Of a DNA stretch of 59,266 nucleotides, positions 5,546 through 57,337 are shown piece by piece; within the stretch, counting starts at the first letter, position 1; every line of letters starts with the position of its first letter. Both the position numbers and the translations under genes were made by a program. The notes below the pieces were generated by a model. That model saw only the letters and a program-made list of their open reading frames with translations. It did no database searches and had not been told where the DNA came from. This stretch comes from Eubacteriales bacterium (lineage in GTDB: Bacteria; Bacillota; Clostridia; Lachnospirales; Lachnospiraceae). The DNA lies in the NCBI GenBank assembly GCA_030526005.1, contig JAUNDP010000014.1:1-59266 (forward strand), in the 5' to 3' direction.

Positions 5546-6372
5546 AATGCTTCACCTGCCTTCTCTAATTCTGCCATCGCTGTCTCATATTCTGCGTCAT
5601 TTGGAGCTTTTCCATGCCAGGAAACCTGATTTTCCATAAAGGAAACTCCTTTTCCTTTTACTGTTTTTGCAATAATCGCAACTGGTTTTCCTTTCACAGT
5701 CTTTGCCTCTTCAAATGCTGCGCGGATCTGGTCAAAATCATTGCCGTCTTCCAGACAAATTGTATAAAAATTAAATGCTTCAAATTTTTTATCAATCGGG
5801 TATGGGGAACATACCTCTTCTACTTTTCCGTCAATCTGAAGTCCATTGTTATCTACAATGACAGTCAGATTGTCCAGATGATTTGCACCTGCAAACATGG
5901 AAGCCTCCCATACCTGTCCTTCCTGAATTTCTCCGTCTCCCAGAAGTGTGTAGACATGATAGGATTCGTTTGAAATTTTTGCGGACAGCGCCATTCCAAC
6001 AGCCGCTGAGATTCCCTGTCCCAGAGATCCGCTTGACATATCTACTCCTGGAATATGTTTCATATCCGGATGTCCCTGAAGATAAGAGCCAACTTTTCGC
6101 AGTGTTTTTAAATCCTCTGTCGGAAAATATCCTCTATGTGCCAATGTTGAATACAGTCCCGGCGCTGTGTGACCTTTTGAGAGTACGAAACGGTCTCTGT
6201 CCTGTTTTTTCGGGTTCTTAGGATCAATATTCATTTCTTCAAAATACAAATACGTAAAAAGATCGGCTGCAGATAAGGAACCGCCCGGATGTCCTGCTTT
6301 TGCACTGTGTACACCTGTCAAAATTCCTTTCCGAATCTCATTAGCAACTTTTTGAAGCTCTAATTTGTTCAT
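5533..6372 (-). CDS. Transketolase, N-terminal subunit (ThDP-binding)
   Basis: 279 residues. The second ATG (6372) is chosen because TAAGGAG lies seven bases ahead of it; the ATG at 6378 is only one base from the ribosome site. The protein carries SAKAGHPGGSLSAADLF, FVLSKGHTAPGLYS and the thiamine diphosphate/magnesium motif LLGDGEIQEGQVWEAS ending in VDNNGLQIDG. It is the pyrophosphate-binding half of a two-gene transketolase and precedes its partner in the same transcript. Confidence 0.93.
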   Translation of the reverse strand: MNKLELQKVANEIRKGILTGVHSAKAGHPGGSLSAADLFTYLYFEEMNIDPKNPKKQDRDRFVLSKGHTAPGLYSTLAHRGYFPTEDLKTLRKVGSYLQGHPDMKHIPGVDMSSGSLGQGISAAVGMALSAKISNESYHVYTLLGDGEIQEGQVWEASMFAGANHLDNLTVIVDNNGLQIDGKVEEVCSPYPIDKKFEAFNFYTICLEDGNDFDQIRAAFEEAKTVKGKPVAIIAKTVKGKGVSFMENQVSWHGKAPNDAEYETAMAELEKAGEALCQK

Positions 6373-6414
6373 GTTCATTCTCCTTATTCTGTTATGGCTA
6401 TTACTTGCGACCCT

Positions 6415-6443
6415 ATTATAAGGGCTTTTCAGCGGAAGATCAA
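6415..6443 (-). promoter_or_regulatory. Promoter for the transketolase pair
   Basis: Minus-strand TTGATC (6438-6443), 17-base spacer, TATAAT (6415-6420), with a leader of about 40 nt. No terminator was seen between recR and this promoter, so read-through from recR is also possible. Confidence 0.65.
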
Positions 6444-6492
6444 GCTTTATTCCCCGGATCTTTCCCTGTTTTGCCTTTCCTGCCGCATATTT

Positions 6493-7089
6493 CTACAATT
6501 CAATTCTTCCTTCAAGGGCGCGCAGAAGCGTCACTTCATCAATATATTCCAGATCTCCGCCCACCGGCACTCCGCTTGCAATACGGCTCACTTTGATCCC
6601 GGTCGGTTTAATCAGTTTGCTGATATACATCGCGGTTGTCTCTCCTTCCAGGCTGGAATTTGTAGCAATGATGACCTCCTTGATCTCTCCCTGAAGCCGT
6701 TTCATCAATTCTTTCAGTTTAATCTCATTCGGTCCAATTCCCATCATCGGAGAGATTGCGCCGTGCAGTACATGATAAACGCCATTAAATTTTCCTGTCT
6801 TTTCATATGCTGCCAGATCTCTCGTATTTTCCACCACCATAATCGTACTGTGATCACGCCCCGGATTTGCGCAGATCGGACAGATTTCCTGATCGGTCAG
6901 CGTATAGCATTCCTTACAGTAACGCACTTTTTCTTTTGCCTGAATGATTGCCTCTGACAGTCCTTTTACTTCTTCCATCGGGCGGTTTATGATGTGAAAA
7001 GCCAGGCGTTGTGCTGATTTTGTACCAACGCCCGGCAGCTTTGACAGTTCCTCAATTAACTTGCTGATATAACTGCTGTAGTAATCCAT
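6493..7089 (-). CDS. recR: Recombination protein RecR
   Basis: 198 residues, the usual RecR length. It has an N-terminal helix-hairpin-helix ([19 protein letters not shown]), a four-cysteine zinc finger ([16 protein letters not shown], about residues 57-72), a Toprim domain ([16 protein letters not shown]) and the C-terminal [19 protein letters not shown] segment. RecR works with RecO/RecF in loading RecA at gaps. Its ATG overlaps the ybaB stop codon as TAATG, indicating translational coupling. Confidence 0.97.
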
Positions 7090-7445
7090 TAGAATGGGAA
7101 GCCTCCGCCCAGACCGCCAAGACCGCCTGCCAGTCTTGACATTGTAGAAGCCGCCTCTTCTTCCATTTTACGCATCGCCTCATTTGTGGCAGCCATGATT
7201 AAGTCCTCCAGCATCTCAATGTCATCCGGATCTACTACTTCTTCCTGCAGTTTCACTTTTGTGACTTCTTTCTTTCCTGACACCGTCACTTCCACAGCGC
7301 CGCCTCCGGCAGTTGCGGTAAACTCTTTTTCTTCAAGCGCTTTCTGGTTTTCCTCCATCTGCTTCTGCATTTTCTGCGCCTGTTTCATCAGATTATTCAT
7401 GTTTCCCGGCATCATTCCGCCTGGAAATCCTCCTCTTTTTGCCAT
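7089..7445 (-). CDS. YbaB/EbfC nucleoid-associated protein
   Basis: 118 residues: a Gly/Met-rich N-terminus, the coiled [24 protein letters not shown] helix, the [16 protein letters not shown] strand region and a Gly-rich tail. YbaB/EbfC proteins are small DNA-binding dimers, nearly always encoded between dnaX and recR as here. GGAGGAAG lies ahead of the ATG. The dnaX stop is only 25 bases upstream, consistent with one operon dnaX-ybaB-recR. Confidence 0.95.
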
Positions 7446-7470
7446 ATTTCTTCCTCCTGAAATTTACTTT

Positions 7471-9114
7471 TTAAAAATCTTCCACAATCACATCGGTATT
7501 GATAAACCGCTCAATGGCTTCATCCACACCGATTTTTGCAAGCGTCCCTGCGGTCAGCGCCTCATCCTCCTGAAGGATCATCCTGACCTCGACTTTTTTG
7601 CCGATTTTTTTTGCAATCAGCTCCTCCAGCTCATGCTGTTTTTCCTGATTGTCGATATAAGGTTCCGCCAGAAAATCTGCAAATACGATATACAGTCGAT
7701 TGTCGTCCTCTGAAGTGGCATTAAATTTAATCTGTGCCGAAGAAAGCACCACTTTAAATCTCCCGCTCGTCATTGCAACAATGCTTCTCCACATGGACTG
7801 CACTTGCTGCAGATCCTTTGGCGCAGCCTTATCCATGACTGTCTTTTGCGATGCCGTCTGCATTTCTCCAGAATATTCTGATCCGGCATCGGACGGATTC
7901 CACTGTGCATCCACATTTCTTTTATGCGTGTTTCCCGTATTGGGCTCAGCCATGAAAACGCCCTGTTCCATTTTCTTTTCCAGTCTGCGCACACGTTCCA
8001 GCAGAGAAGAAGGATCCCGTTCCATCTGCGGACGGCACAGCTTGATCAAAGCCATCTCTACTAAAATTCTCTTATTGGAAGCATTTTTCAGCTGATTTGT
8101 CAGTTCTGAAAAAATTCGTATAAAGCGCATCAGCGTATCCTGACGGATCATTCCTGCCTCTTCTTTGAGCTGAATCAAGTTTTCAGCCGAGACATCCAGA
8201 ATCTCCTCCATATTATCAGATGCTTTGATTAAAAGCAAGTTTCTCATATACCAGGTAAAATCATTTACAAACTGTCCCAGATCGCTTCCCTGCATGATAA
8301 TTTCTTCCAGATGTGCGATCACTCCCGCCACATCATCGTTTAAAATCTCCCGCAGAAAGCTGCTGAATACGTCTGTGTCCACAGCGCCTAAGACCTCCAG
8401 CACTTTCTCATAAGTCAGCTTCTGTCCAAGATAAAAAGAAATGCACTGCTCCATCAGACTGAGCGCATCTCTCATTCCTCCGTCCGCTTTTTTTGCAATA
8501 TAGCGGATTGCTTTTTCTTCTACCTCAATATTTTCTTTTTCCATCAGTTCCCGCAGGCGGTCGCTGATCACATCCAATGAAATTCTCTTAAAATCATAGC
8601 GCTGGCAGCGCGATAATATCGTGACCGGAATCCTGTTGACTTCTGTAGTAGCCAGAATAAAGATGACATAGGACGGCGGCTCCTCCAACGTTTTCAGAAG
8701 CGCATTGAATGCTCCTATGGTCAGCATATGAGCCTCATCAATGATGTAGACCTTATATCTTCCCATGGTCGGAGAATAAGTGACTTCATCCTTGATCTCC
8801 CTGATATTGTCCACGCCGTTGTTGGATGCCGCATCAATCTCTATTACATTCAGGGAAGTCCCTGCTGTGATTGCTTTGCATGTATCACATTCGTTACAGG
8901 GACTCCCATTTACAGGATGTTCGCAATTTACTGCTTTTGCAAAAATTTTCGCTATAGTTGTCTTACCAGTTCCTCTCGTACCGCAGAATAAATACGCATG
9001 TCCGATTCGATCCGCGTTAATCTGGTTCTTCAGTGTTGTCACGATATGATCCTGACCTTTGACATCATCAAATTCATCCGGTCGGAATTTTCTGTATAAA
9101 GCAGTATAGCTCAT
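7471..9114 (-). CDS. dnaX: DNA polymerase III subunit gamma/tau
   Basis: 547 residues. The AAA+ core has Walker A GTRGTGKT (about 45-52), a zinc module CEHPVNGSPCNECDTC (64-79), Walker B YIIDEAHML and the sensor ATTEVNRIPVTILSRCQRYDF. Domain III and a C-terminal tau extension (from about residue 385) follow. It is the clamp-loader motor and tethers the polymerase. No slippery heptamer comparable to the E. coli gamma frameshift site was noticed, so only the long form may be made. AGGAG precedes the ATG. Confidence 0.96.
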   Translation of the reverse strand: MSYTALYRKFRPDEFDDVKGQDHIVTTLKNQINADRIGHAYLFCGTRGTGKTTIAKIFAKAVNCEHPVNGSPCNECDTCKAITAGTSLNVIEIDAASNNGVDNIREIKDEVTYSPTMGRYKVYIIDEAHMLTIGAFNALLKTLEEPPSYVIFILATTEVNRIPVTILSRCQRYDFKRISLDVISDRLRELMEKENIEVEEKAIRYIAKKADGGMRDALSLMEQCISFYLGQKLTYEKVLEVLGAVDTDVFSSFLREILNDDVAGVIAHLEEIIMQGSDLGQFVNDFTWYMRNLLLIKASDNMEEILDVSAENLIQLKEEAGMIRQDTLMRFIRIFSELTNQLKNASNKRILVEMALIKLCRPQMERDPSSLLERVRRLEKKMEQGVFMAEPNTGNTHKRNVDAQWNPSDAGSEYSGEMQTASQKTVMDKAAPKDLQQVQSMWRSIVAMTSGRFKVVLSSAQIKFNATSEDDNRLYIVFADFLAEPYIDNQEKQHELEELIAKKIGKKVEVRMILQEDEALTAGTLAKIGVDEAIERFINTDVIVEDF

Positions 9115-17529: not shown

Positions 17530-18534
17530 TTAGTCATACAGATGACAGCGGACAACGTGTCCATTGCCCATATCTTTTGGCTGCGGCGCCTCCGTCTTAC
17601 ATTTCTCCATACATTTGCTGCATCTTGTATGGAATTTACATCCTTTCGGAGGATTTGCCGGAGATGGAATACTTCCTTCCAGAATAATACGATTTCTCTT
17701 CAGATTCGGGTCCGGCATCGGAATTGCGCTGAACAATGCCTGTGTATACGGGTGAAGAGGATTTGAGAAAATATCCTTTGTCTCTCCTGTCTCCACCAGA
17801 CCTCCCAGATACATAACGCCAATCGTATCTGAAATGTGCTCTACGACAGAAAGGTCGTGAGAGATAAACAGATAAGTCAGGTTACGGTCTCTTTGAAGGT
17901 CTTTCAGCAGGTTGATGATCTGTGCCTGAATAGAAACGTCAAGTGCGGAAACCGGCTCATCGCATACGATAAATTCTGGATTCAGCGCAAGCGCTCTTGC
18001 AATACAGATTCTCTGACGCTGACCGCCTGAGAATTCATGAGGATAACGGTCTTTGTGATATTCCTGAAGTCCGCATTCACTCATGATTTTTGTGATATAA
18101 TCATCAAACTCATCCTTTGGAACGAGATTGTGCTCTCTGACTGCTTCTCCAATAATTTCTCCTACTGGAAGTCTTGGAGAAAGGGAAGAATATGGGTCCT
18201 GAAAGATGATCTGCATTTTTGTTCTCAAGCTTCTCATCTGTTTTTTATCCAGTGCGTAGACATCCTGTCCGTTGAATTTTACTTCTCCGTCTGTCTTATT
18301 GATCAGTCTTAAGATGGTACGTCCTGTCGTAGACTTTCCACATCCGGACTCTCCTACGAGTCCCATTGTCGTACCGCGCTTGATATTGAATGTGACATCG
18401 TCTACTGCTTTGACGTGACCCACGACTCTGGATACCAGTCCGCCTTTAATCGGGAAGTATTTTTTCAGGTGGGATACTTCCAGAATATTATCCTTTGAAT
18501 CTTTTTCCAAGGACATGTTCTTCTGTTCACTCAT
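17530..18534 (-). CDS. oppF: Oligopeptide ABC transporter ATP-binding protein OppF-type
   Basis: 334 residues. Walker A GESGCGKST, Q-loop QIIFQDPYSSLSPR, signature FSGGQRQRI, Walker B FIVCDEPVSALD and the switch His in FISHDL are present. The C-terminal oligopeptide/dipeptide extension carries cysteines (GCKFHTRCSKCMEKCKTEAP) that in related proteins bind an iron-sulfur cluster. It pairs with OppD to energise peptide import. The ATG has AAGGAGG upstream, and its neighbour OppD ends two bases before. Confidence 0.95.
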   Translation of the reverse strand: MSEQKNMSLEKDSKDNILEVSHLKKYFPIKGGLVSRVVGHVKAVDDVTFNIKRGTTMGLVGESGCGKSTTGRTILRLINKTDGEVKFNGQDVYALDKKQMRSLRTKMQIIFQDPYSSLSPRLPVGEIIGEAVREHNLVPKDEFDDYITKIMSECGLQEYHKDRYPHEFSGGQRQRICIARALALNPEFIVCDEPVSALDVSIQAQIINLLKDLQRDRNLTYLFISHDLSVVEHISDTIGVMYLGGLVETGETKDIFSNPLHPYTQALFSAIPMPDPNLKRNRIILEGSIPSPANPPKGCKFHTRCSKCMEKCKTEAPQPKDMGNGHVVRCHLYD

Positions 18535-18535
18535 C

Positions 18536-19696
18536 CTATTTTACCTCCTTTTTCTTCTGATCTGCATAGCGATAGCAGCTAACCACATGCGTTGGTGAAA
18601 GCTGTATTTCCTTTGGATATGGTCCGGAACACTGTTTTACACACATCTCACAGCGGTCTTTAAAGTAACAATAGTTCGGCATATTAATCGGGTTTGGAAC
18701 TTTTCCCGGAATACTGTAAAGACGGTCAATCTCTTTTCCTACGACTGGTTTTGAGTTCATCAGACCGATTGTATATGGATGGGAAGGATTTGTAAAAATA
18801 TCCTGTACCGTTCCCTGTTCCACAACACGTCCCGCATACATAACGACAACGTAATCCGCCATCTCTGCGATAACGCCCAGGTCATGCGTGATCAACATGA
18901 TACTGGAATTGATTCTGTCTTTCAATCCGCGCAGCAGATCGAGGATCTGTGCCTGAATCGTCACATCAAGAGCGGTTGTCGGCTCATCTGCAATGATCAG
19001 TTTCGGGTCACATGCCAGTCCGATTGCAATACAGATTCTCTGTCTCATACCACCGGACAGCTCGTGTGGATACATTTTGTAGACACCTTCACAGTTTGCG
19101 ATTCCGACAAGCTGAAGCATCTCGATCGTACGCGCCTTCACCTGTTCCTTTGTCATGGAAGGATTGTGAAGCTGAATGACTTCATCTACCTGATCTCCGA
19201 TTCGAAATACCGGATTTAAGCTTGTCATCGGCTCCTGAAAAATCATGGAAATCTGATTTCCGCGCAGACTCTGCATCACAGAAGATGGAGTCTTTGCGAT
19301 ATTGTAGCATTTTCCATCAGCCTGGAAGCGGATTTCTCCGCCTACCGTCTGACCCTGCGGACGCTGTACCAGCTGCATCAGCGATAAACTTGTAACTGAC
19401 TTTCCACATCCGGACTCTCCTACGATTCCGACTGTCTTTCCTTTCGGAACATTAAAGCTGACTCCGTCCACCGCTTTTGAAACTCCTACATCCGTGAAGA
19501 AGTATGTCTGAACGTTGTCGAACTCAACGACATTGTTGTCGTCTTTCATTTTTGTTATATATTCTTCTTCCGGAATATGTTTGCGTTTTCTCTGTTTTTC
19601 AATCTCATCTGTAATCTTTCGATTTTCTTTTGAGATGCGTCTTGCTTCTTTTCCGGAGATATAATTTGCGTTTTTCTTTTTACTGAATAATCCCAT
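18536..19696 (-). CDS. oppD: Oligopeptide ABC transporter ATP-binding protein OppD-type
   Basis: 386 residues. Walker A GESGCGKSVTSLSLMQ, Q-loop MIFQEPMTSLNP, signature LSGGMRQRI, Walker B LIIADEPTTALD, switch LITHDLG, and the C-terminal extension with cysteines (YCYFKDRCEMCVKQC). About 58 extra charged residues precede the ABC domain (from MGLFSKKKNANYISGKEARR), longer than typical OppD. It forms the ATPase heterodimer with OppF. Confidence 0.95.
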   Translation of the reverse strand: MGLFSKKKNANYISGKEARRISKENRKITDEIEKQRKRKHIPEEEYITKMKDDNNVVEFDNVQTYFFTDVGVSKAVDGVSFNVPKGKTVGIVGESGCGKSVTSLSLMQLVQRPQGQTVGGEIRFQADGKCYNIAKTPSSVMQSLRGNQISMIFQEPMTSLNPVFRIGDQVDEVIQLHNPSMTKEQVKARTIEMLQLVGIANCEGVYKMYPHELSGGMRQRICIAIGLACDPKLIIADEPTTALDVTIQAQILDLLRGLKDRINSSIMLITHDLGVIAEMADYVVVMYAGRVVEQGTVQDIFTNPSHPYTIGLMNSKPVVGKEIDRLYSIPGKVPNPINMPNYCYFKDRCEMCVKQCSGPYPKEIQLSPTHVVSCYRYADQKKKEVK

Positions 19697-19704
19697 GGTT
19701 TCAC

Positions 19705-21447
19705 CTACCTCTTCATCTTCGGGTCAAACGCATCACGCAGACCGTCACCTACAAAGTTGAATCCTAATACAGTCAGCAGAATCAGGCATCCGGCTGGAAT
19801 CCATACAAACCAGTAGTTCGTCAATACATAGCTGTCATTTACCGCATTTACGATATTTCCCCATGAAGCATATGGGAATTTTACACCTAATCCAAGGAAA
19901 CTTAAGGTCGCCTCCATCAGGATAACAGAACCTAATTCCATTGTGGAAATTACGATGATCTGAGGAATAACGTTTGGAATCAGATGTTTCATAATTCTTC
20001 TGCTGACACGGATACCAGTTGCCTCTGTAGCGATCATGAATTCCTGTTCTCTCAGAGAAAGGATCTGACCTCTTGTCATACGCGCAATCGTTGTCCATCC
20101 AATCAGTCCGAGGATGATACAGAGCATAAAGATACGGACTCTAGGATCTACCTGCATATAGTCCATGACAGATCCTAAAATCAGGTACAGCGGCATAGAT
20201 GGAATACAGATTACGATATCTACGATACGCATCAGGATGGTATCTACCCATCCGCCAAAGTATCCGGCGATTCCTCCGACCAGCATACCTAAAACAATCT
20301 CAATCAGGATAACGACAAATCCGATCAGAAGAGAGATTCTTCCTCCGTACATCAGACGTGTCATCATATCCATACCGTTTCCATCTGTTCCCAGCCAGTG
20401 TTCCTTTGATGGGGATGCAAACGTATCATTCAAATGTGTCTCTGTATTTTTCTTAACCGTATACTGATTATCTCTTACCTGAATGCGGTATTCTTCCTCT
20501 TTTCCTTCTGCACTTGCAAAAGTGAGCGCTGTCTCTCCGCTGCTTACTGCTCTTTCAATCTCTCTTCTCAGATCGAGACTGAGGAAGTCTGATTTCTGGA
20601 TCATGTTCATCACATAGTAGGAAACATACGCATACTCTTCTCCGTCTTTGGAAATCATTGCTGAATCTGTTTCCTTGTCCACATCCAGTTGATACGTCTC
20701 TCCGTCCACAGTTATGGATGTCTCCCCGGCATCGATTGCTTTCTCTGCTGCAAACTGAAAATCATATGTCATTTCAGTATCTGAGGAAGCAGTTGAGAAT
20801 ACTTTTTTTGTTGCCATTCCCAGATTCTCCACAACGGAAATCATATACTGTTTTCCTTTTTTGGAAATCTGATATTCTGTATCACCGACCTCAGCAACGG
20901 CCTTGTCATTATCGATCGCTTCCGCAATCGCCTCTTTCGCTTCATCAGTCAGCGGAACGCTTCCGCTCTCATTGAATCGATAATTTCCTTTTAATGCCAG
21001 CGCAGTTGCAATCTGTGAACCGCCGGCAATCGAATAAAATTCTTCTCCTTCTTTTATCAGATAATACGTCGTACTATTTGCCTCAAATGATTCTTCTCCA
21101 TTATCGGCCGCTTTTGTCAGTGCAGAAACAATAGAGGAAGGAAGTTTTTTCCCTTCCATAGGAATCAGACGATATGCACTGTTTTTCGTCACTCCAACAT
21201 AATCTTTTAAAATGGTATCTGTCTTACGGAATACCTGATCTTCTTTATATGGGGTCAATGCTCCCCCTACAAATGCAAACAGGAACATACAAACCAAAAT
21301 CACCAGACCGACCATGGCAAGTCTGTTTCGGAAGAATCGTTTTGCAACCATTGCTCCCGGTGAAAGTACTTTTACTCTCTGTTCATCATCCAGGGATTTT
21401 GAAGTACTTATGTGTTTATTTTCGGCTTTTGTGTCTTCTTTTTTCAT
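19705..21447 (-). CDS. oppC: Oligopeptide ABC transporter permease OppC with large repeat-containing extracellular insertion
   Basis: 580 residues, against about 300 for ordinary OppC. TM1 (about 43-63) and the C-terminal half from PSKEHWLGTDGNGMD (346) onward are standard, with the EAA-like loop around IATEATGIRVSRRIMKHLIPN. Between them, residues about 75-342 form an insertion in the first external loop. It contains four imperfect modules (about 104-140, 166-204, 227-275, 291-331), each a short helix with GE or ND followed by a YxI..G..Y strand pair. This loop faces the substrate-binding side, and the cognate OppA has no lipid anchor. AAGGAG precedes the ATG. Confidence 0.93.
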   Translation of the reverse strand: MKKEDTKAENKHISTSKSLDDEQRVKVLSPGAMVAKRFFRNRLAMVGLVILVCMFLFAFVGGALTPYKEDQVFRKTDTILKDYVGVTKNSAYRLIPMEGKKLPSSIVSALTKAADNGEESFEANSTTYYLIKEGEEFYSIAGGSQIATALALKGNYRFNESGSVPLTDEAKEAIAEAIDNDKAVAEVGDTEYQISKKGKQYMISVVENLGMATKKVFSTASSDTEMTYDFQFAAEKAIDAGETSITVDGETYQLDVDKETDSAMISKDGEEYAYVSYYVMNMIQKSDFLSLDLRREIERAVSSGETALTFASAEGKEEEYRIQVRDNQYTVKKNTETHLNDTFASPSKEHWLGTDGNGMDMMTRLMYGGRISLLIGFVVILIEIVLGMLVGGIAGYFGGWVDTILMRIVDIVICIPSMPLYLILGSVMDYMQVDPRVRIFMLCIILGLIGWTTIARMTRGQILSLREQEFMIATEATGIRVSRRIMKHLIPNVIPQIIVISTMELGSVILMEATLSFLGLGVKFPYASWGNIVNAVNDSYVLTNYWFVWIPAGCLILLTVLGFNFVGDGLRDAFDPKMKR

Positions 21448-21462
21448 ACTCCTTCTCCCTTC

Positions 21463-22449
21463 TTAGTTTACTCTGACACGAGGATCAGCCACTGCATATA
21501 AAATATCAGCAAGCAGTGTTCCCATTAATGTCAAGAATGCGATAAATGTCATATAGAACATTGTAAAAGGAATATCTCCTTTTGTCAGACACTGATAGGA
21601 AGTATAGCCAATACCTGGAATCTGGAACAGTGTTTCTGTGATCAGAGCTCCTGAAAACAGAGCTGGCAGCTGGTTCGCAAGAATTGTGATGATTGGAATC
21701 AGAGTATTTCTGAATGCGTGATGATTGATAACACGGCTCTCCGGCAATCCCTTAGCGCGCGCTGTACGAATATAGTCTGCGTTTAATACCTCCAACATAT
21801 TCGTTCTTGTATAACGCATCAAACTACCGATCTGAACAATCAAAAGAGTGGTAATCGGAAGAACCAGGTGCTGTGCGATATCCATGACTTTTCCAAACGG
21901 ACTTAACTGTTCGTGCATACGTCCTACGACGCCGTACAAGTCAAACCATCCCAGCTTAATTGAGAAAATATATTTTAACAGGGTTGCAAAGAAGAATGAC
22001 GGCAGCGAGATACCGATCAAGGCAAACACGGTGATTCCATAATCCACCTTGCTGTATTGCTTTCGCGCCGCCAAAATTCCAAGCGGCACCGCGATTCCGA
22101 TTTGCAGAATAAATGCAATCAAGCCAACGGCAAACGAATACCAGATTACTTCTTTGAATTTCTCTGTAACAGGTTTATTCCACTCCCAGGAATCACCGAA
22201 TTCACCGCGGATCGCCTGTCCTGCCCAGTGAAAATATCCCGGTACGATAGATTTGTCCAGTCCATACGCTGCATTGAGTTCTTCTACCAGTTCATCATAT
22301 GATTTCGCTCCTGGTTTTTCTGACATCGTCCTTGCTTTTGTCTCTACGAAAGAAGATGGCAGGCAGCGTTCAATGGAATAGATAATGAAGGAAACAAAGA
22401 ACAAGATTACCACAGACAGCGCTAATCTTCGAATAACAAATTTTTTCAT
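21463..22449 (-). CDS. oppB: Oligopeptide ABC transporter permease OppB-type
   Basis: 328 residues from the ATG at 22449 (AAAGGA six bases ahead; the TTG two codons upstream overlaps that site). Six predicted membrane segments, the typical N-terminal RRLALSVVILFFVSFIIYSIERCLPS, the EAA loop region YIRTARAKGLPESRVINHHAFRN and C-terminal LLADILYAVADPRVR. It partners OppC. Two hairpins lie between it and oppA upstream. Confidence 0.95.
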   Translation of the reverse strand: MKKFVIRRLALSVVILFFVSFIIYSIERCLPSSFVETKARTMSEKPGAKSYDELVEELNAAYGLDKSIVPGYFHWAGQAIRGEFGDSWEWNKPVTEKFKEVIWYSFAVGLIAFILQIGIAVPLGILAARKQYSKVDYGITVFALIGISLPSFFFATLLKYIFSIKLGWFDLYGVVGRMHEQLSPFGKVMDIAQHLVLPITTLLIVQIGSLMRYTRTNMLEVLNADYIRTARAKGLPESRVINHHAFRNTLIPIITILANQLPALFSGALITETLFQIPGIGYTSYQCLTKGDIPFTMFYMTFIAFLTLMGTLLADILYAVADPRVRVN

Positions 22450-22470
22450 ATCCAATCCTTTCTGTTTACT

Positions 22471-22544
22471 GTAGGTGAAGCGAGGGGAAAGAAATTCTCT
22501 CCTCCCGTTTCACCTACATTTGGGCCCGTCCAGGCGGGCCCAAA
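22471..22544 (-). other. Tandem stem-loops in the oppA-oppB gap
   Basis: Hairpin A: GTAGGTGAA (22471-22479) with TTCACCTAC (22509-22517). Hairpin B: TTTGGGCCCG (22519-22528) with CGGGCCCAAA (22535-22544). Neither is followed by a U-run on the minus strand. They probably stabilise the oppA message or partially attenuate read-through, giving excess binding protein over permease. The remaining bases of the 152-base gap hold nothing recognised. Confidence 0.65.
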
Positions 22545-22601
22545 CCATCAGTTCCTTATGTCTTTTCTGTTATTTTTAATGCCGAACTGCTGCATTATTT
22601 T

Positions 22602-24839
22602 TTAGTTCATTTCAATCAGAGCAATATCTTTTACCCATCTGTAGAATGGTGTTGAATCTTTTGTAAAGGAATCTGCATTGACACGTTCTGGGCTGTATAC
22701 AACACAGTTCTGTCTCTGATAGATCGGAACCTCTACACCCCAGTCGATTACGATATCGAGTGCCTGTTTGTACAGAGGTTTTCTGTAAGCCTGGTCATCG
22801 CTTGTTCTTGCTTCCAGAATGATTTCATCCAATTCTGGATCTGCGATGCAGTAGTGGTTACTTGGCTGGTTACTAGCGTAAACCTGATACATATCAGGAT
22901 CTGCATCTGCTGCCCATGCTGCTGCCCACAGTTCTGTTGTATGAGCGCTCATGCTGTCATATAACTGGCTTGTATCACTTAAATCGTTGATGATTAATTC
23001 AATTCCGATTTCTCCCAGAGCTTTCTTTGCGTCTGCAATGATACCAAAGCTTGGATGATCTCCTTTTCCGTCTGCACCGATCATCATTTCATAGCTCATC
23101 TTAGCGCCTTCTGGAGCTGCAACAGCTTTGCCGTTTTCGATTGTATATCCAGCTGCTTCTAAGTATCCTAAAGCTGCCTGTTTTGCTGCTTCATATTTCT
23201 GTTCTGCTGTCATATCAGCTGTGTAGATATCGTTTCCGTCTACGTCTACAGAATAAGCTGTTCTGTAATCAGCATCTGATTTTTTAGGAGCTGCCCAGGA
23301 AGTATTGGAGATTGGGTAGTCGATAACAGCAGCTGCTTCTCCGTAGTAAGAATCAATGTTTACATCACGGTATACAGAAATTACAGTAGCGATTGCTTTT
23401 CTTAAGTTCTTGGAAGCGTCAGATCCTGCATCTCCTCCTACGTTTACAGTAGAAGCGTTAATTCCGATATAACCATATCCCAGGTTATCTGTTGTAACTG
23501 TGTTGATGACATCACCGTTCAGTTCTCCGTTTCCGTTGATGTCGCCGATCTGCTCAAATGCAGATTTACTTCCGTCTGGGTCAGAGATATCTGCTGTACC
23601 CTGCTGAACTGCTGGGATCTTATCAGAATCATCTGTCTCTTTTAACTGAATATTTTTTGTCTTTGGAGAGCCTAAGAAGTAATCTTCGTTTGCTTCCAGA
23701 TAAACGATCTTGTTTTCATATTTTACAAATTTGTAAGGTCCGTATCCAAGAGGTTTTGTAGATTTTTCTTTCATTGCAGAAAGGTCTCCTCTTGTGAAAC
23801 CAAACTGATTATTTTCGTAATCATACATGCTCTCGTCACCATAATAGTGCATTGGCACGATACCGAAATTGAAGCGATATGGTGTAGTAGCGTCATATCC
23901 GTTTAATGTGATTTCTACTTCATAATCGCCTAATTTCTTAACGCCTTCGATGTTCGGAACTTCTTCTCCTTCACCGTTTGCTTTCATTTCTTCAACTAAG
24001 TATGTCTCAGCTACGCTTGCTGCCTGAGATGCAAGTGTCTCTTCATCTCCGTAGTTTGCGCCCAGAGTTGCATAATCTCCATCATACATTGCAACTACAT
24101 CTGCGATTACTTCTTCCTGAGTCTTTTCGCCTGGATCATATGCTTCGTCTAAAGCGTAAGATGCAACATACAATTCGATTGCGGATCCCATTCCGAATCC
24201 TTCATAGTTTTCTTCACACCATGCCATCTCAGATGTCAGGAGTGGAGTGATTACCTGATCTACAATGTTTGTCTTTAATCCTTCTGGCATTTCTTCCAGA
24301 GCTGCTGCAACTTTTTCTTCTGTAACAGAATCTGCTGCTGTGGAGTTCGCACGGTAATTCTTTAATCCTTTGATGTTCTGCGCATATAAAGTCTGGTTTC
24401 CATCATAGCTTGGATCACACAGTGCGTAGATTGTAAAGATTACGTCATCTGCTGTCAGGTTTACACCGTCTGTAAAATAAATGTCATCACGCAGTTTGAA
24501 ATTGTAGACTGTCTCATCTGTCTCTTCATTTCTTGTCATTGTGACATCTGCCATTCCATAGTAAGTATAATCTGTTCCATTATACTCTCTTGTTTCTCCT
24601 TCGATTCCGTTCCATACAGGCAGACCGCTTCTGTCCAGCGTCAAAAGCCATGGTGTAATGATATCTGCAACATCATTGTCATAAACCTGCTCTGCGAACA
24701 GAGGTGAAAATTTTTCATTGAAGTTTGTTACTCCAACAACAAGCGGCGTATCTTCTGCTGCATACGCCATGCTTCCTACCATACCGGCTACCATTGTTCC
24801 GGTCAGTAAAGCGGACACCAGTTTTTTGGTTCTTCTCAT
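22602..24839 (-). CDS. oppA: Oligopeptide ABC transporter substrate-binding protein OppA-type, no lipobox
   Basis: 745 residues of the SBP_bac_5 type: EKFSPLFAEQVYDND, FKLRDDIYFTDGVNLTADDVIFT, GYGPYKFVKYENKIVYLEANEDYFLG, WAADADPDMYQVYASNQPSNHYC and the C-terminal VYSPERVNADSF. It captures peptides outside the cell. It is longer than usual because of an insertion at about 165-300 between the first strands and the VEITLNGYD region. The signal peptide ends MAYA-AED with no Cys, so it should be cleaved by signal peptidase I and not lipid-anchored, which is unusual for a monoderm. AAAGGAGG precedes the ATG. Confidence 0.93.
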   Translation of the reverse strand: MRRTKKLVSALLTGTMVAGMVGSMAYAAEDTPLVVGVTNFNEKFSPLFAEQVYDNDVADIITPWLLTLDRSGLPVWNGIEGETREYNGTDYTYYGMADVTMTRNEETDETVYNFKLRDDIYFTDGVNLTADDVIFTIYALCDPSYDGNQTLYAQNIKGLKNYRANSTAADSVTEEKVAAALEEMPEGLKTNIVDQVITPLLTSEMAWCEENYEGFGMGSAIELYVASYALDEAYDPGEKTQEEVIADVVAMYDGDYATLGANYGDEETLASQAASVAETYLVEEMKANGEGEEVPNIEGVKKLGDYEVEITLNGYDATTPYRFNFGIVPMHYYGDESMYDYENNQFGFTRGDLSAMKEKSTKPLGYGPYKFVKYENKIVYLEANEDYFLGSPKTKNIQLKETDDSDKIPAVQQGTADISDPDGSKSAFEQIGDINGNGELNGDVINTVTTDNLGYGYIGINASTVNVGGDAGSDASKNLRKAIATVISVYRDVNIDSYYGEAAAVIDYPISNTSWAAPKKSDADYRTAYSVDVDGNDIYTADMTAEQKYEAAKQAALGYLEAAGYTIENGKAVAAPEGAKMSYEMMIGADGKGDHPSFGIIADAKKALGEIGIELIINDLSDTSQLYDSMSAHTTELWAAAWAADADPDMYQVYASNQPSNHYCIADPELDEIILEARTSDDQAYRKPLYKQALDIVIDWGVEVPIYQRQNCVVYSPERVNADSFTKDSTPFYRWVKDIALIEMN

Positions 24840-24854
24840 AATTCTAATCCTCCT

Positions 24855-25406
24855 TTAATTTTTAGATGAAGGCAAGATGGTAAACTCCACCCCATCTATG
24901 TTTCTTTTATTTCTAATAACCAGCGCAAAGTTTACTGCACAGATTACTAAAAATCCACCTTCCCGCAGCCATTCGTGACCTTCCAGTCCGCTCTGAACCA
25001 TTCGGATCACCATGAAAATAGTCTCTGCGATCATCAAATAACCTAACCCCCAGATCATACCTCTGAGACTTCTTCTGAGCCGGACAATCGACTTTTCATA
25101 TGTCGGAAATTCCATCTTTTCTGACGCCCTGTTGAATGTAAAGGCACCCATCACAAAATAAATCCCCGGAAAAAATAAAATGGCATACGGAAGTACCACA
25201 TAGAACATTCTGCTACTCGGCGTATTTAAAAGCCCTGCCGCAAAGTGAAGCGCCATAAAAAGAACGGCTGAGATAAAAAATTCTTTTCTGGCTGTCTTTT
25301 CTTTTGTTATCTTGTAGTAGTCACCCGTATAGATGATGTTGCGGATTTTTTTGTTATTTTCTCCGCGTATCGTCTCTGTCCGGTATTGATTGATATATTT
25401 TTTCAT
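24855..25406 (-). CDS. Four-helix membrane protein of the opp operon, unknown
   Basis: 183 residues. After about 45 polar residues come four hydrophobic segments (about 45-62, 68-90, 117-137, 150-166). A short cytoplasmic RLRRSLRG stretch lies between the second and third. No family was recognised. Its ATG overlaps the oligoendopeptidase stop codon (ATGA), so translation is coupled, and it ends 16 bases before oppA. The position suggests a role in peptide uptake or assembly of the transporter. Confidence 0.7.
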   Translation of the reverse strand: MKKYINQYRTETIRGENNKKIRNIIYTGDYYKITKEKTARKEFFISAVLFMALHFAAGLLNTPSSRMFYVVLPYAILFFPGIYFVMGAFTFNRASEKMEFPTYEKSIVRLRRSLRGMIWGLGYLMIAETIFMVIRMVQSGLEGHEWLREGGFLVICAVNFALVIRNKRNIDGVEFTILPSSKN

Positions 25407-27082
25407 ACGATTTTTGACAATTTCTCTTCTAATTTCTCTGCAATCATCTTCATGCTGCCGTCCTCAAATGGCACTTTCAGTCCCACTTCTTTCAGCATAT
25501 TTCCATAAAAATCACTTGCGGAAAGTCTGCACAGCTTCAGATAGCTGCTCCATGCCCCCTTGTAGTCCTCGTCCATCCAGATTTTGTACTGGAACGCACA
25601 CGTCTGGGCAAGCACATAATCAATATAATAGAATGGTGAACGGTAAATATGCTGTTGTTTCTGCCAGATTCGTCCCTCGTCAAAGAAAGAGTCTTCATAG
25701 GACAGATACGGACGGTATTCATTTTCCAGTTTTCTCCACACTGCATGGCGCTCCTTCGGCGTCATATCCGGATTTTCATACACAATGTGCTGGAATTCAT
25801 CCACCATTGTACCGTATGGAATAAAAATAATCGCATCTTCCAGCTGCATTTTCAGGAAATCCTGATACCGTTCGCCAAAGAAGCTTTCCATCCACGGGTC
25901 TGTGAAGAATTCCATGGACATGGAATGAATCTCTGCTGTCTCCATCGTGATATCTCTGTGCTCTTTTATCGGGTCCATCCCGGCAAGATATCCCTGAAAT
26001 GCGTGACCGCATTCATGCGTGATGACATCGACGTCTCCGCTTGTACCGTTAAAGTTTGCAAATACAAACGGCGCCTGATAATTTGGAAGATATGTCATAT
26101 ATCCGCCGCCTCTTTTTGTCTTTCTGCCCAGAACGTCAAACAGCTCATTTTCGATCATAAAATCCATAAATTCTTTTGTCTCTTCTGACAACTCTGCGTA
26201 CATTCTCTGTCCGCATTTCAGAATCTCTTCCGGTGTTCCGACCGGTTTTGGATTGCCCTGCGGGAAGTACACGCCTTCTTCTTTATGTGTCAGTTTTTCC
26301 AGGCCAAGACGTTTTTTTCTTCTCTCATGCACTCTTTTTACAAATGGCACAAAATCTTCTTTGACCTGTCTGCGGAATTTTTCTACTTCTTCCTGACCGT
26401 AACTGTTGCGGTTCATTCGATAATATCCCAATTCCACATAATTTTTATACCCAAGCGCTCTTGCCTGAGCTGTTCTGTTCTTGACAAGCTGATCGTAGAT
26501 CTGATCCAGTTCTTCTCCGATGCTCTCAAAGTAAGCAATATACTTCTGATATGCACGGTTTCGAATCTCCTGATCCGCGCTCTGCAGATATGGTGTCATC
26601 AGAGAAAGGTTTAAAACCTCGCCGTCCCACTCAATCTGTGCAGAGGCAAGCAAGTTGGAGTACTTTGTCGTCAATGCATTTTCTTCCTGCATCAGTCCGA
26701 TAATTTTCTCATCAAATCCTTTGTTTGCAAGCTCCATGCTCTTAAATGCCACATGACCAATCTTTTCTTCCAGATAGTCTCTGTATGGGGACTCAAATAA
26801 CATCTTCTGATATTTGATCACCATATCTTTGTATCCTGGCATGGAAGCATCATAGTAATCATTCTCTTCTTTATAGTACGCATCTGCAGTATCCCCGTCA
26901 TGGCGGATCTCTGCCAGAGTAGAAAATGTTTCCACATCATCTGTCAGGCTGTAATACTTTTTGTGAATTTCAAACTGTTCTTCTCCGCTCTGCGCATTCT
27001 GAAATTCTTTCATCAGATCCTGAAATCTGTTCTGAATTTCCGCAAAGTCGACACGTTTATACGGCATGTCCTGAAATTTCAA
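25403..27082 (-). CDS. M3 family oligoendopeptidase (PepF-like)
   Basis: 559 residues. The zinc site is HECGH (in VITHECGHAFQGYL, about residue 350) with the third ligand in TAEIHSMSME, as in thimet-type M3 peptidases. No signal peptide, so it should hydrolyse imported peptides in the cytosol. The start is TTG at 27082: AGGAGG is eight bases ahead, while the next ATG is five codons further in. It is the first gene of the unit that continues into the membrane protein and oppABCDF, linking import with degradation. Confidence 0.93.
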   Translation of the reverse strand: MKFQDMPYKRVDFAEIQNRFQDLMKEFQNAQSGEEQFEIHKKYYSLTDDVETFSTLAEIRHDGDTADAYYKEENDYYDASMPGYKDMVIKYQKMLFESPYRDYLEEKIGHVAFKSMELANKGFDEKIIGLMQEENALTTKYSNLLASAQIEWDGEVLNLSLMTPYLQSADQEIRNRAYQKYIAYFESIGEELDQIYDQLVKNRTAQARALGYKNYVELGYYRMNRNSYGQEEVEKFRRQVKEDFVPFVKRVHERRKKRLGLEKLTHKEEGVYFPQGNPKPVGTPEEILKCGQRMYAELSEETKEFMDFMIENELFDVLGRKTKRGGGYMTYLPNYQAPFVFANFNGTSGDVDVITHECGHAFQGYLAGMDPIKEHRDITMETAEIHSMSMEFFTDPWMESFFGERYQDFLKMQLEDAIIFIPYGTMVDEFQHIVYENPDMTPKERHAVWRKLENEYRPYLSYEDSFFDEGRIWQKQQHIYRSPFYYIDYVLAQTCAFQYKIWMDEDYKGAWSSYLKLCRLSASDFYGNMLKEVGLKVPFEDGSMKMIAEKLEEKLSKIV

Positions 27083-35981: not shown

Positions 35982-36962
35982 CTATTCAAATAACTCTGGA
36001 TAGAATCCTTCTGCAAATTTCTCAACGGTGTCAGCCACGCGTGTACTTGCGAACACTTCCGGAAGCGTGATAACGATAAAACGATCTTCCTTGATCGCTG
36101 TCACATCTGCCAGCGCCTCATTGTTTTTCAGGAATTCTACTTTTTCGTCGGCTGTTGTATCGCCGTAATCATTAATAATAATAATTTCCGGATCTCTTGC
36201 AACGACTTCTTCCCAACTTACCGTGTTCCATGTCTTCTCCAGATCTTCAAAGATATTGACGCCTCCTGCATGGCGGATTAATTTTGATGTAAAATTGTTT
36301 CCAGGTGTATATGCTCCTCCGTCCATCTCCATATCAAAGTTAAAGACACGAATCGGATCGTCATAGTGAATCTTTACTTTCTCTTCTACCGCTGCCACTT
36401 TCTCTTTCATTCCGCTTACAATCTCTTCTGCTCGATCCTGCACCTGAAAAATTTCGCCCAGGTTGTAGAAGTCCTGATATACATCTTCCAGGTCGCAGCC
36501 CAGTTTATATCCTTCTATTGAAGAAAGGGACATGATCCCATATTCCTGCAGTTCTGTATGTGTAGCAATATTGCTGTCTGAATCACCAAAAGCAGAACTT
36601 CTTCCATAGATAAAATCCGGGTTCAGATCCAGAACAACTTCCAGACTTGGATATTTCTCGGCAATCACAGGCTTTGACTCATATTCTGCTCTGTATTCCT
36701 CGGAAACCTGGGCATTATTGTAACACGTTGCAATAATCTTATCGCCAAGTCCAAGAGCCATCAGCTGTTCTCCCGTATTCGGGTTCGTACTCAGTACTCT
36801 CTCTGGTACATGATCAAATGTTACTTCTTCCTCATTTTTTGTGACGAGTGTAAATGGAAATGCAGAATCTCCCTGGGACTCCTCCTGTGCAGATACATTA
36901 GCAGCCAAAATCATACTTCCTGCTGCAATCAGTGCCAGACATGTTTTGATGTGTTTTTTCAT
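35982..36962 (-). CDS. Cobalamin-type ABC importer binding protein, system 1, no lipobox
   Basis: 326 residues from the ATG at 36962 (GAAAGGAG about nine bases ahead; a GTG one codon earlier is possible). It is a type III periplasmic-binding fold (FecB/BtuF): PERVLSTNPNTGEQLMALGLGDKIIATC, LNPDFIYGRSSAF, WEEVVARDPEIIIINDYG. The signal peptide ends NVSA-QEES with no Cys, so no lipid anchor is predicted. It is the first gene of the operon and is preceded by a cobalamin riboswitch. Confidence 0.88.
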   Translation of the reverse strand: MKKHIKTCLALIAAGSMILAANVSAQEESQGDSAFPFTLVTKNEEEVTFDHVPERVLSTNPNTGEQLMALGLGDKIIATCYNNAQVSEEYRAEYESKPVIAEKYPSLEVVLDLNPDFIYGRSSAFGDSDSNIATHTELQEYGIMSLSSIEGYKLGCDLEDVYQDFYNLGEIFQVQDRAEEIVSGMKEKVAAVEEKVKIHYDDPIRVFNFDMEMDGGAYTPGNNFTSKLIRHAGGVNIFEDLEKTWNTVSWEEVVARDPEIIIINDYGDTTADEKVEFLKNNEALADVTAIKEDRFIVITLPEVFASTRVADTVEKFAEGFYPELFE

Positions 36963-37049
36963 CACTTTTCTCTCCTTTCAACTTACCTTTCTGCCCTTTT
37001 CCCGCTTTTTTATGCGAATATTTTTATTCATAATCTATATATTCATTCC

Positions 37050-37367: not shown

Positions 37368-40300
37368 TCAAAGGACCGGACATTTGATATAATGAGCCTC
37401 AAAATCACGTTCCGGAAGCGGTTTATTTAAATAATACCCCTGAATCGTATTACAGTTCATAGTTCTGAGTATATCCAGCTGTTCTTCTGTCTCCACTCCT
37501 TCTGCGACACAGATGATATCCAGTTTTTTACATAGATCAATAATATTTTCCACAACCATTCTGGCTTTGCTGTCATGATAAATGTCACTCACAATGCGCC
37601 GGTCTAATTTTAATGAAGTCAGATTTAAAGAATACAAGACATAGATATTGCTGTACTCTGATCCAAAATCATCTAGCGCAATTTTATATCCTTCAGTAAT
37701 AAACTGATTTACAATATCCTGGAGACTGGCATTGTCAATAGAACTGATTGTCTCTGTCACTTCGATTTCAATCAATTCTTTTGGGATATCGAAACATTCT
37801 GTGATACGGTTTGTCTCTGCCAAAATCCCCGGTTCCAAAATAGTTGTCCTCGAAAAATTCAGTGAAATCGGGAATGGTTTCCATCCTGCGTCCATCCACT
37901 TTCGGATCATTCGACACACATCTTCCAGCACAAACAGATCTACATATCGAATCAGTCCAGCTCTTTCAATTTCAGGCAAAAAGCGCCCCGGAGATATAAT
38001 TCCTTTTTCTTTATGAGCATATCGAACCAGCGCTTCCGCGCCACAGATCTCCTTTTCTTTTGCTGTCGCCTTCGGCTGCAAAAACGTACAGAATCTTCCA
38101 TTTCCAATCGAATTTTTCAGTCCTCTTGTCATCTCCAGCATCGTTTTATCCTTGCTGCTGTAATCCTGATTTCTCTTCTTGTTCACAGCGACCATCAATT
38201 TTTCCTCTATTTGCCGCTGCAGCCGTTCTACGGATATCGCGTGTTGTTCCCACACTTTCTGGATCACAATCCATTTTGGATATAACTGTTTGATTTCTTT
38301 CTCCAGCCGTTCACAGCGATGCAGAAAATTTTCATATGTCATATCAGGACATATACCTAAAAAGGATGCCCCGCTGATCCGATAGCAGGAGTCCTTTCCA
38401 AAAATTTTCGCCATCTGTTCCGACGCAAAAATTACAAGCTCATCTCCGCGCCGGACTCCATACTTTTGATTGTATCTTTTCAAATCTACAATGTGAACGC
38501 CGACCATGCCAAGAGCGGAGCACACCTCTACATCCAGGTTCTCTTTCTTCTGTCTGAAACGATTATAATTGAAAAGTCCTGTCTTCTGATCACGGCAGAC
38601 GGCATTTTCATAATTTTTCTTCAGTTCAAAAACGCTCTGTATATGATGGATAGCTGCTGCAACTGCTTCCAGTGTTTTCATCGTATTTTTATTGCAGCAT
38701 ACATCTTCCAGCATAAGACATCCCGTCCGTCTTTCCTGTTTCATAATCTTTGTCAGTAGGACAGCGCCTGGAACGCTTCCCTTCCCATAATAATTTTGAA
38801 GCTGCGGATATCCCGGACTTTCCTCTGTATCAATCAGAATACTGTTTTCCGGCATCGCCAGTTCCAAAACTTTTTCCAGCCATCCATTTTCTCGCTTTTT
38901 CTCCAGGCCATCGTCTGCTGAAAGGCTGTCCATTCTCCAGACCATCGTCTCTTTCAGTTCTTTTTCTTCTTCCTTTGTAAGAAAGAGGACGCAACGAGCA
39001 TGATAAAACTTCCCAACGTAAGCCATACACGATCGAAGCACAGACTGTAAATCTTCTCCTTTTTCGATGTTGCTGTAGCACTCTTCCATAAAGATATAAA
39101 GATTTTCATCTTCACTCCCACGGTTTCCATCAAATGATCGCTCTCGCAGACGGATTTCTCTCACAATCTCCCCCTCTTTCAGGGCAAGTCTCTCCTGCAC
39201 ATACATCAATTTATTGAATCTTGGAATGAAACATTCCCATGCGCACGCTTTTTCAAAATGGACTCTCGCATTGCAGAATGGGCACGGCTTCTTTCGATTA
39301 TAAAGCAGCTCATAACACTTCAGGTTCGTCTTCATCGTCCCTTTCATCCCCAAAGCAATCTGGCCTGTCACGTTCATGTAGATAATATTGTAGTCTTTCA
39401 TCTCCACCATAAATTCAATTTCCATGCCAGAGTCCAGATTTTCAATTTCTCTGTAAAAAAGCATCATATTTTTTCCATTTCTCTTTGCAGTGTCAAGAGA
39501 ATGAAGTGCGCACTGATACATCTGATCATATGTCATATCATCTGAAAAACGGTAGACCATCCCGGCAGATACTGTCAGGTGAATTTCATACTGCTTTATT
39601 GTATACCGACGGCACAGCGCTGATCGGATTTCCATCGCCAGACGATAAATCTCCTGATCCGATTTCATATTATAGAAGAAGACAGAAAAGACGTCTCCAT
39701 TGTGGCGCGCCGATATGCACGATGCCGGTATTCTGCTTCTGATCTCCTGACTCATCTGCCTTAGAATCGTATTTCCTGCCAGATAGCCTCCCGTGCGGTT
39801 TACTTTATTAAAGTTATCTACATCCAGCAGCATAAGAGCGCTGACTCCCTTATTTTCTTTTTCATTTTTTAAAATATTCTGAACCAAAAGTTTCGCTGTC
39901 GCATGACTGTAGAATCCGCTCACCTCATCGATCTCCACTTTTTTCTGGAGAGCCAGTTCTCTTTTTTTCTGAAGATCTATGTTACGGGCATATCCAAACA
40001 GAATCGGTTCTTCCCCGTTCGGTGATCTCATAATTCTCATATTCAGCATCACCCACAGGATCATTCCGTCTTTTTGTTTCTGACGAAATTCAAAGTCTGG
40101 AATCGGATACATCGTCTGTGCATATTCATAGATTTTATCCAATGTATACGCCTGAAACCGTTTACAGTCGTCTTCATTCGCAATCGTCTCTTTTATTTTT
40201 TTGAAAATCTCAGGATAGCCCAGATCATGAAGTCCTTCCTTCATTTTCTGTTGGCTGCACTCCCATACTTCTTCCAGATAATTTCTTCTGATATTGATCC

Positions 40301-42977: not shown

Positions 42978-43059
42978 TCTCAAATTTCTCCTCTTGTCTG
43001 TTCATTCACTACCGTTCTAAACCAATTAAATTACGGTAGAATATATTATATCATAAAGA

Positions 43060-47328: not shown

Positions 47329-51927
<4,599 letters not shown>

Positions 51928-52458: not shown

Positions 52459-57337
<4,879 letters not shown>

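Follow-up and report, generated by a model that had tools for sequence, protein, structure and literature searches.

The locus described here poses the question of why the OppC subunit of a peptide permease should carry a very large outward insertion, and whether that insertion serves the binding protein OppA. The window, by which we mean the whole 59,266-nucleotide stretch that was analysed (contig JAUNDP010000014.1 of assembly GCA_030526005.1, from a member of the Lachnospiraceae), contains a minus-strand oppABCDF operon at positions 17530-24839, with genes for a small membrane-type protein and an M3 oligopeptidase upstream.

17530..18534, minus strand: oppF ATPase (Pfam and NCBIfam matches)
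18536..19696, minus strand: oppD ATPase (Pfam and NCBIfam matches)
19705..21447, minus strand: oppC, 580-residue permease subunit with the outer arm (ORF, OppC_N, BPD_transp_1)
21463..22455, minus strand: oppB, 330-residue ordinary partner permease (ORF, Pfam, chain alignment)
22602..24839, minus strand: oppA, 745-residue binding protein; signal peptide present, no lipobox (Pfam, signal region)
24855..25406, minus strand: 183-residue membrane-type protein, upstream of oppA (no family above cut-off)
25403..27082, minus strand: M3-family oligopeptidase, PepF-like (Pfam)

The presence of an oligo_HPY ATPase pair, a binding protein and a second permease identified the operon as one for a peptide ABC importer. 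OppB aligned over nearly its full length with ordinary chains of DppB and OppB; the B subunit has no insertion. The order oppA-B-C-D-F was found in 90 of 92 loci bearing the OppC repeat modules described below. Among the 75 module-bearing loci whose upstream sequence extends for 1 kb or more, 30 have a match to the 183-residue protein there; a match to the oligopeptidase stands upstream in 26 of the 70 that extend for 2.2 kb or more. Elsewhere in the window, adjacent genes at 47329-51906 and 52459-57030 encode GH2 beta-galactosidase-like proteins of about 1525 residues each, with nearly identical domain sets that include Laminin_G_3 and NPCBM, and a gene at 37368-42983 encodes an 1871-residue protein with PAS, GGDEF and EAL domains.

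Two Pfam families marked the permease as a member of the OppC/DppC group: OppC_N on residues 29-73 (48.3 bits; cut-off 23.9) and BPD_transp_1 on residues 387-580 (89.9 bits; cut-off 26.4), with no Pfam family above its cut-off between them. The closest NCBIfam model was Opp4C (NF045476), whose 335.9 bits fell below the 350-bit cut-off for membership; this 278-position model has no room for the modules. The HWLGTD motif begins at residue 350, and PDB chains of OppC and DppC aligned only from about residue 336-347 onward. The distance from TM1 to HWLGTD is 284 residues in the window OppC versus 40-53 in relatives without modules, in agreement with an earlier note on this DNA, which had put the ordinary length at about 40. 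Its description of a 580-residue OppC with a large insertion between TM1 and HWLGTD was likewise borne out by the ORF, Pfam and the alignment. It had placed the insertion at residues 75-342; the location was right but the limits were slightly off, as the loop spans residues 66-349 and the modules residues 103-349. The TM1-TM2 loop of OppC-type permeases faces outward, and the loop was divided as follows.

20401..21252, minus strand: complete TM1-TM2 loop, OppC residues 66-349 (47-loop alignment)
21142..21252, minus strand: loop lead-in (PYKEDQVF...), residues 66-102, whose second half aligns with a module end
20953..21141, minus strand: module 1, residues 103-165 (hhalign, module HMM)
20773..20952, minus strand: module 2, residues 166-225 (hhalign, module HMM, 47-loop alignment)
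20584..20772, minus strand: module 3, residues 226-288 (hhalign, module HMM)
20401..20583, minus strand: module 4, residues 289-349 (hhalign, module HMM)

In this genome OppC_N also detected five other OppC proteins, whose frames have 274-307 residues versus 585 for the frame of the window OppC. The loop has a net charge of -19, close to the median of -20 (range -34 to -2) for 104 loops with duplicates counted. We rejected a sequencing artefact or frameshift as the source of the insertion, since the loop was long in 51 of 53 loci from a genome scan (including L082, whose oppC is broken into two frames and shows it in the first) and its dN/dS was low. The two exceptions were L080, whose loop is short, and L081, whose contig begins past the loop. 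In two pairs, with dS above 1 and hence as rough values, loop dN/dS was approximately 0.09-0.16 versus 0.03-0.07 for the OppC core; a third pair gave no computable value. Both computed pairs show the loop to be under purifying selection.

The loop of the window OppC consists of four degenerate modules of about 60 residues, each a helix followed by strands. When modules were cut from the 47-loop alignment at hand-set boundaries, all six pairs scored 82.8-98.1% in hhalign, versus at most 6.1% for 12 reversed-profile controls. A self-alignment free of set boundaries, using a profile of 28 four-module loops, gave an off-diagonal at a shift of about 64 (174 columns, 99.5%) and a second at about 124 (97.6%); a third at about 187, which places module 1 on module 4, was weak at 2.5%. 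One reversed and five shuffled profiles reached at most 0.9%. In a cruder test, which compared the 28 loops at fixed offsets without gaps, 64, 63, 124 and 123 came out on top, and this result did not exceed shuffles, 25 of 300 of which reached the observed score. With only the window sequence, 124 was the best gap-free offset, and 72 of 300 shuffles reached its score. Because the profile tests pass and the gap-free and single-sequence tests fail against shuffles, we conclude that the repeats are clear at the profile level and too divergent for proof from one sequence. Four imperfect repeats had been proposed from the letters alone, and the hhalign pairs and profile self-alignment confirmed them. 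The module consensus is roughly SxxFKxAAxxAIxNGExSFEADGxTYxLxxxG....I...GExVAxASxxV; simple propensities, a crude guide, read it as a helix and then strands, which agrees with the helix and strand pair suggested previously.

The profile search that had been proposed for the loop returned no described family above cut-off. For the window loop, three Pfam families appeared at E≤0.1, all below cut-off, and no NCBIfam family matched. Across the 47 loops, with E values up to 0.1, any one Pfam family was found in at most three members (best single E 0.00052) and any one NCBIfam family in at most four. Solved structures gave no meaningful match to the loop profile (best E 0.22) or the module profile (0.041). 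In the family libraries searched, Pfam and NCBIfam, the module is thus undescribed as judged by sequence comparison. In 150 genomes of the family the module gave 44 matches at E≤1e-3, every one in OppC; 36 were position-checked and the remaining eight are OppC of the window and its congener. There were nine weaker rows (E 0.001-0.01), and the four examined sit in FeoB-like or other frames without OppC and were taken as chance matches. The occurrence of modules in proteins other than OppC was therefore rejected for these 150 genomes at E≤1e-3. Acidic extracytoplasmic modules in tandem, in variable copy number, might suit a spacer or wall-facing domain, and we considered whether the arm positions or spaces the importer by attaching to the cell wall or to some other partner in the envelope. 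We regard this as unlikely, since neither Pfam nor NCBIfam has a family that the window loop matches above cut-off, and the modules occurred only in OppC at E≤1e-3 in the 150 genomes.

The scan just mentioned covered one genome per species and yielded 53 loci, which include Blautia, Robinsoniella, Herbinix, Kineothrix and Lachnoclostridium as well as Pseudobutyrivibrio, Christensenella, Pseudoflavonifractor and Solobacterium. Since some of the scan patterns fall within the loop, this set is biased toward arm-bearing systems; searches with the OppA core are free of that bias. The sample counts used differing queries and E limits: loop queries matched 17 of 200 genomes of the family and 2 of 398 of the phylum, and OppA-core queries matched 44 of 397 genomes of the family, 28 of 391 of the class, 39 of 200 of a different family and 5 of 33 of a different order. 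The OppC arm is real and common to many Clostridia.

The loops fell into classes by length. Three-module loops have 215-230 residues and four-module loops 260-294, although the first two copies were weak or missed in four rows of 260-267 residues; two loops of 252-257 residues resemble three modules with an enlarged last module. The longest loops, of 324-427 residues, have degenerate copies and a period nearer 73, so that 'five' modules denotes a length class rather than a copy count. Loops of the moduleless class have 40-53 residues. In three-module relatives about one period, corresponding to module 2, is absent in register in the 47-loop alignment. On a tree built from OppB and the OppC core, with the loop excluded and L082 omitted, the module class changed at least eight times, and the deepest module-bearing branches carry four modules, which establishes that copy number has changed. 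The moduleless L080 is nested in a module-bearing clade, a 23-row group with support of 99 (long branch, quick tree), and from this position we conclude that it lost all modules secondarily. Its short loop retains pieces of the two ends of the long loop. The L080 locus (5992-6939 and 6955-8820) has neither OppC modules nor an OppA insertion, and OppD and OppF lie in one 621-residue frame. Two other loci have genes broken into two frames: oppA in L119 (2489-4960) and oppC in L082 (3174-4954).

Such turnover bears on whether the repeats amount to a tolerated elaboration, serving to stabilise the loop without any dedicated partner. The eight or more changes in module class, the complete loss in one lineage and the faster evolution of the loop than of the core would all suit this explanation. 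However, arrays of at least 200 residues have been kept across a broad clade with dN/dS well below 1 in the computed pairs, and we consider it improbable. We are more doubtful still that the arm captures or guides peptides as a second receptor besides OppA. The upstream peptidase gene at 26 of 70 loci and the inferred position of the arm above the channel mouth are compatible with such a role, yet sequence comparison turned up no receptor-type family for the loop, and oppA adjoins in every system where the contig reaches it, whether with three, four, more or, in L080, no modules.

The earlier note had observed that the OppA of this operon lacks a lipobox, and had suggested that the insertion retains this unlipidated protein. 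The first point was upheld by a reading of the signal region, which contains no cysteine. We therefore called lipoboxes, by a pattern with hydrophobicity limits rather than a trained predictor, in two sets of systems. In the first set 68 of 84 callable arm-bearing systems had a lipobox and 16, the window among them, did not; all 29 further callable arm-bearing systems of the second set had one, for a total of 97 of the 113 module-bearing systems whose OppA start could be read. The check that had been suggested, co-occurrence of the insertion with lipobox-less OppA, thus gave the opposite outcome, with the arm found mostly beside OppA bearing a lipobox. The first survey excluded rows without OppA on the contig (L034, L057, L058, L067, L068, L069, L073 and L081), rows without OppC beside OppA (L120, L123-L128, L145 and L148) and duplicates (L085, L088, L091, L093 and L139); it retained one near-identical pair, L051/L053, and 11 of its rows were uncallable for lipidation. 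The second survey comprised 38 stretches, among which L199 duplicates L064, L207 and L223 were uncallable, and L218-L222 have no OppC within the stretch; L212 was dropped as its frame lacks a signal peptide, and counting it as unlipidated would give 29 of 30.

Among the 16, two arm-bearing systems (L129 and L130) have an OppA that starts with a long hydrophobic segment and a linker, with no evident cleavage site, and perhaps this segment is an uncleaved membrane anchor. OppA relatives without a recognisable OppC in the stretch (L120, L123-L128 and L218-L222), some of them in stretches that stop at a contig edge, are perhaps orphan binding proteins.

Could the arm nonetheless substitute for the lipid anchor by holding secreted OppA at the cell surface? 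The window and its nearest kin (WIN, the window system, with L070 and L084; L032, L033, L039 and L079) combine the arm with an OppA without a lipobox, and all seven callable moduleless relatives in the first set have one. Against this stand the 68 of 84 and 29 of 29 arm-bearing systems with a lipobox. Lipidation changed at least eight times on the OppB and OppC-core tree, and seven independent pairs differing in lipidation showed no trend with module number. The window genome itself also speaks against it: Lgt is present, and five of its seven other family-5 binding proteins have no clear lipobox, the other two being doubtful, yet all seven adjoin ordinary OppC proteins of 269-303 residues. 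Only 2 of 11 family-1 and family-3 matches have a clear lipobox, a third pattern hit there looking false as it lies inside a hydrophobic stretch, and two siderophore-type binding proteins in the window (35982-36965 and 43420-44517) have no clear one. More broadly, at loci L155-L160 and L175-L185 of this genome, many binding proteins of families 1, 3 and 5 and of the siderophore type have no clear lipobox, and clear lipoproteins are few. The missing anchor is common in the window genome and unconnected to the arm. In pneumococcus, one report describes harm to several importers on loss of lipid attachment (PMC3404074). We rejected compensation for an unlipidated OppA on the counts, the tree and the comparison within this genome, and the proposal that the arm retains such an OppA, contradicted by 97 of 113 systems, appears very improbable.

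OppA has an insertion of its own, which in part accounts for its length of 745 residues.

23967..24335, minus strand: OppA insertion, residues 169-291 (alignment; absent in L080 and L044)

The best SBP_bac_5 stretch found with Pfam starts only at OppA residue 286, after most of this insertion. L080 lost the OppC modules and the OppA insertion of about 120 residues alike. L044 has four OppC modules and an OppA without the insertion, and among seven outgroup systems without modules, six (L147, L149-L152 and L154) have an OppA insertion of 170-172 residues, the OppA of the seventh being cut off. Since L044 and the moduleless outgroups carry one without the other, the two features are separable. 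In the first set 36 of the 38 systems that have fewer than four modules had an insert no longer than 126 residues, versus 1 of 43 four-module systems, at a cut-off picked after seeing the data. About four of five independent pairs agreed (p 0.125, or 0.0625 at a cut-off of 131). Of the 20 new three-module systems in the second set, 7 had an insert of more than 126 residues, and this spread within three-module systems alone weakened the link between insert length and module number, which we treat as a lead only; the set cannot repeat the contrast between three and four modules because it contains no clear four-module system, two loops of 251-256 residues called four-module by length looking like three modules with an enlarged last one. 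One possible though doubtful arrangement is that the module array and the OppA insertion would be the two halves of a latch, with OppA parked as a resident receptor and module number setting the reach or strength of the latch through loss or gain of whole modules.

Enlarged outer domains on binding-protein-dependent permeases offer precedents for a docking role. AmiC of the Ami importer is a B-type subunit and AmiD a C-type subunit, and MalF of the maltose importer belongs to a different importer family. The AmiC insertion lies in the B-type subunit, whereas here it is OppC that has the insertion and OppB is ordinary at 330 residues. In an AlphaFold model of the pneumococcal importer, as far as the available sections of the paper go, residues 31-278 of AmiC make up two extracellular domains, for which a role in clamping the binding protein is proposed, and the TM1-TM2 segment of AmiD touches lobe 2 of that protein (PMC11192437). 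The two domains of Streptococcus pneumoniae AmiC, ECD1 and ECD2, resemble the OppC arm by description as a large outward insertion near the permease N-terminus, but those sections describe no repeat modules for them (PMC11192437). According to the portion available of a study of E. coli DppABCDF, a TM1-linked scoop motif of DppB fills the DppA cleft (PMC12136057); like the OppC arm the scoop is an outer element after TM1, and it docks into the binding protein, but it has about 30 residues and belongs to the B subunit, in contrast to the C-subunit arm with its roughly 250 residues of repeats. A segment of the P2 region of E. coli MalF, an extra periplasmic region on one permease subunit, contacts MalE in the part of the source at hand (PMC3150292), whereas the window loop gave no match in Pfam above cut-off.

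The position of the arm, together with the DppB, AmiC/AmiD and MalF precedents, leads us to favour the view that it is an outer docking or clamping platform for OppA, a reading to which we give an even chance. In the model that we infer for the fold of the arm, its contact with OppA and its effect on uptake, tandem helix-plus-strand modules of about 60 residues between TM1 and TM2 would form the outer arm of OppC. The modules would have arisen by internal duplication, and whole module periods would have been gained and lost over time. The arm would stand over the permease and bind OppA, adding to the small OppA contacts of ordinary Opp and Dpp permeases, and, judging by its position, it may reach one lobe of OppA. 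The repeats, the restriction to OppC, the gene order, the peptidase upstream, the low dN/dS and the double loss in L080 are consistent with docking. However, the loop changes faster than the OppC core, a pattern that does not point to a closely conserved interface. By position and precedent, docking or gating appears to be the likeliest function of the arm.

Peptide permeases with an enlarged outer domain are already known in kind. Our searches of the open literature, which mostly leave subscription papers outside, returned no description of an OppC with an insertion or extracellular loop of this sort, and the portion available of a survey of Bacillus subtilis transporters names no such arm (PMC11466899). 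As far as these searches reach, the novelty lies in the C-subunit location, in the tandem arrangement and in the undescribed module. The counts for lipidation show no necessary link between enlargement of the permease loop and absence of the lipid anchor. Should the arm dock OppA, the C side of the permease would have been enlarged across a broad set of Clostridia by a module undescribed in the libraries searched, and the natural variants with no, three, four or more modules would provide a series for the effect of an enlarged dock on peptide uptake.
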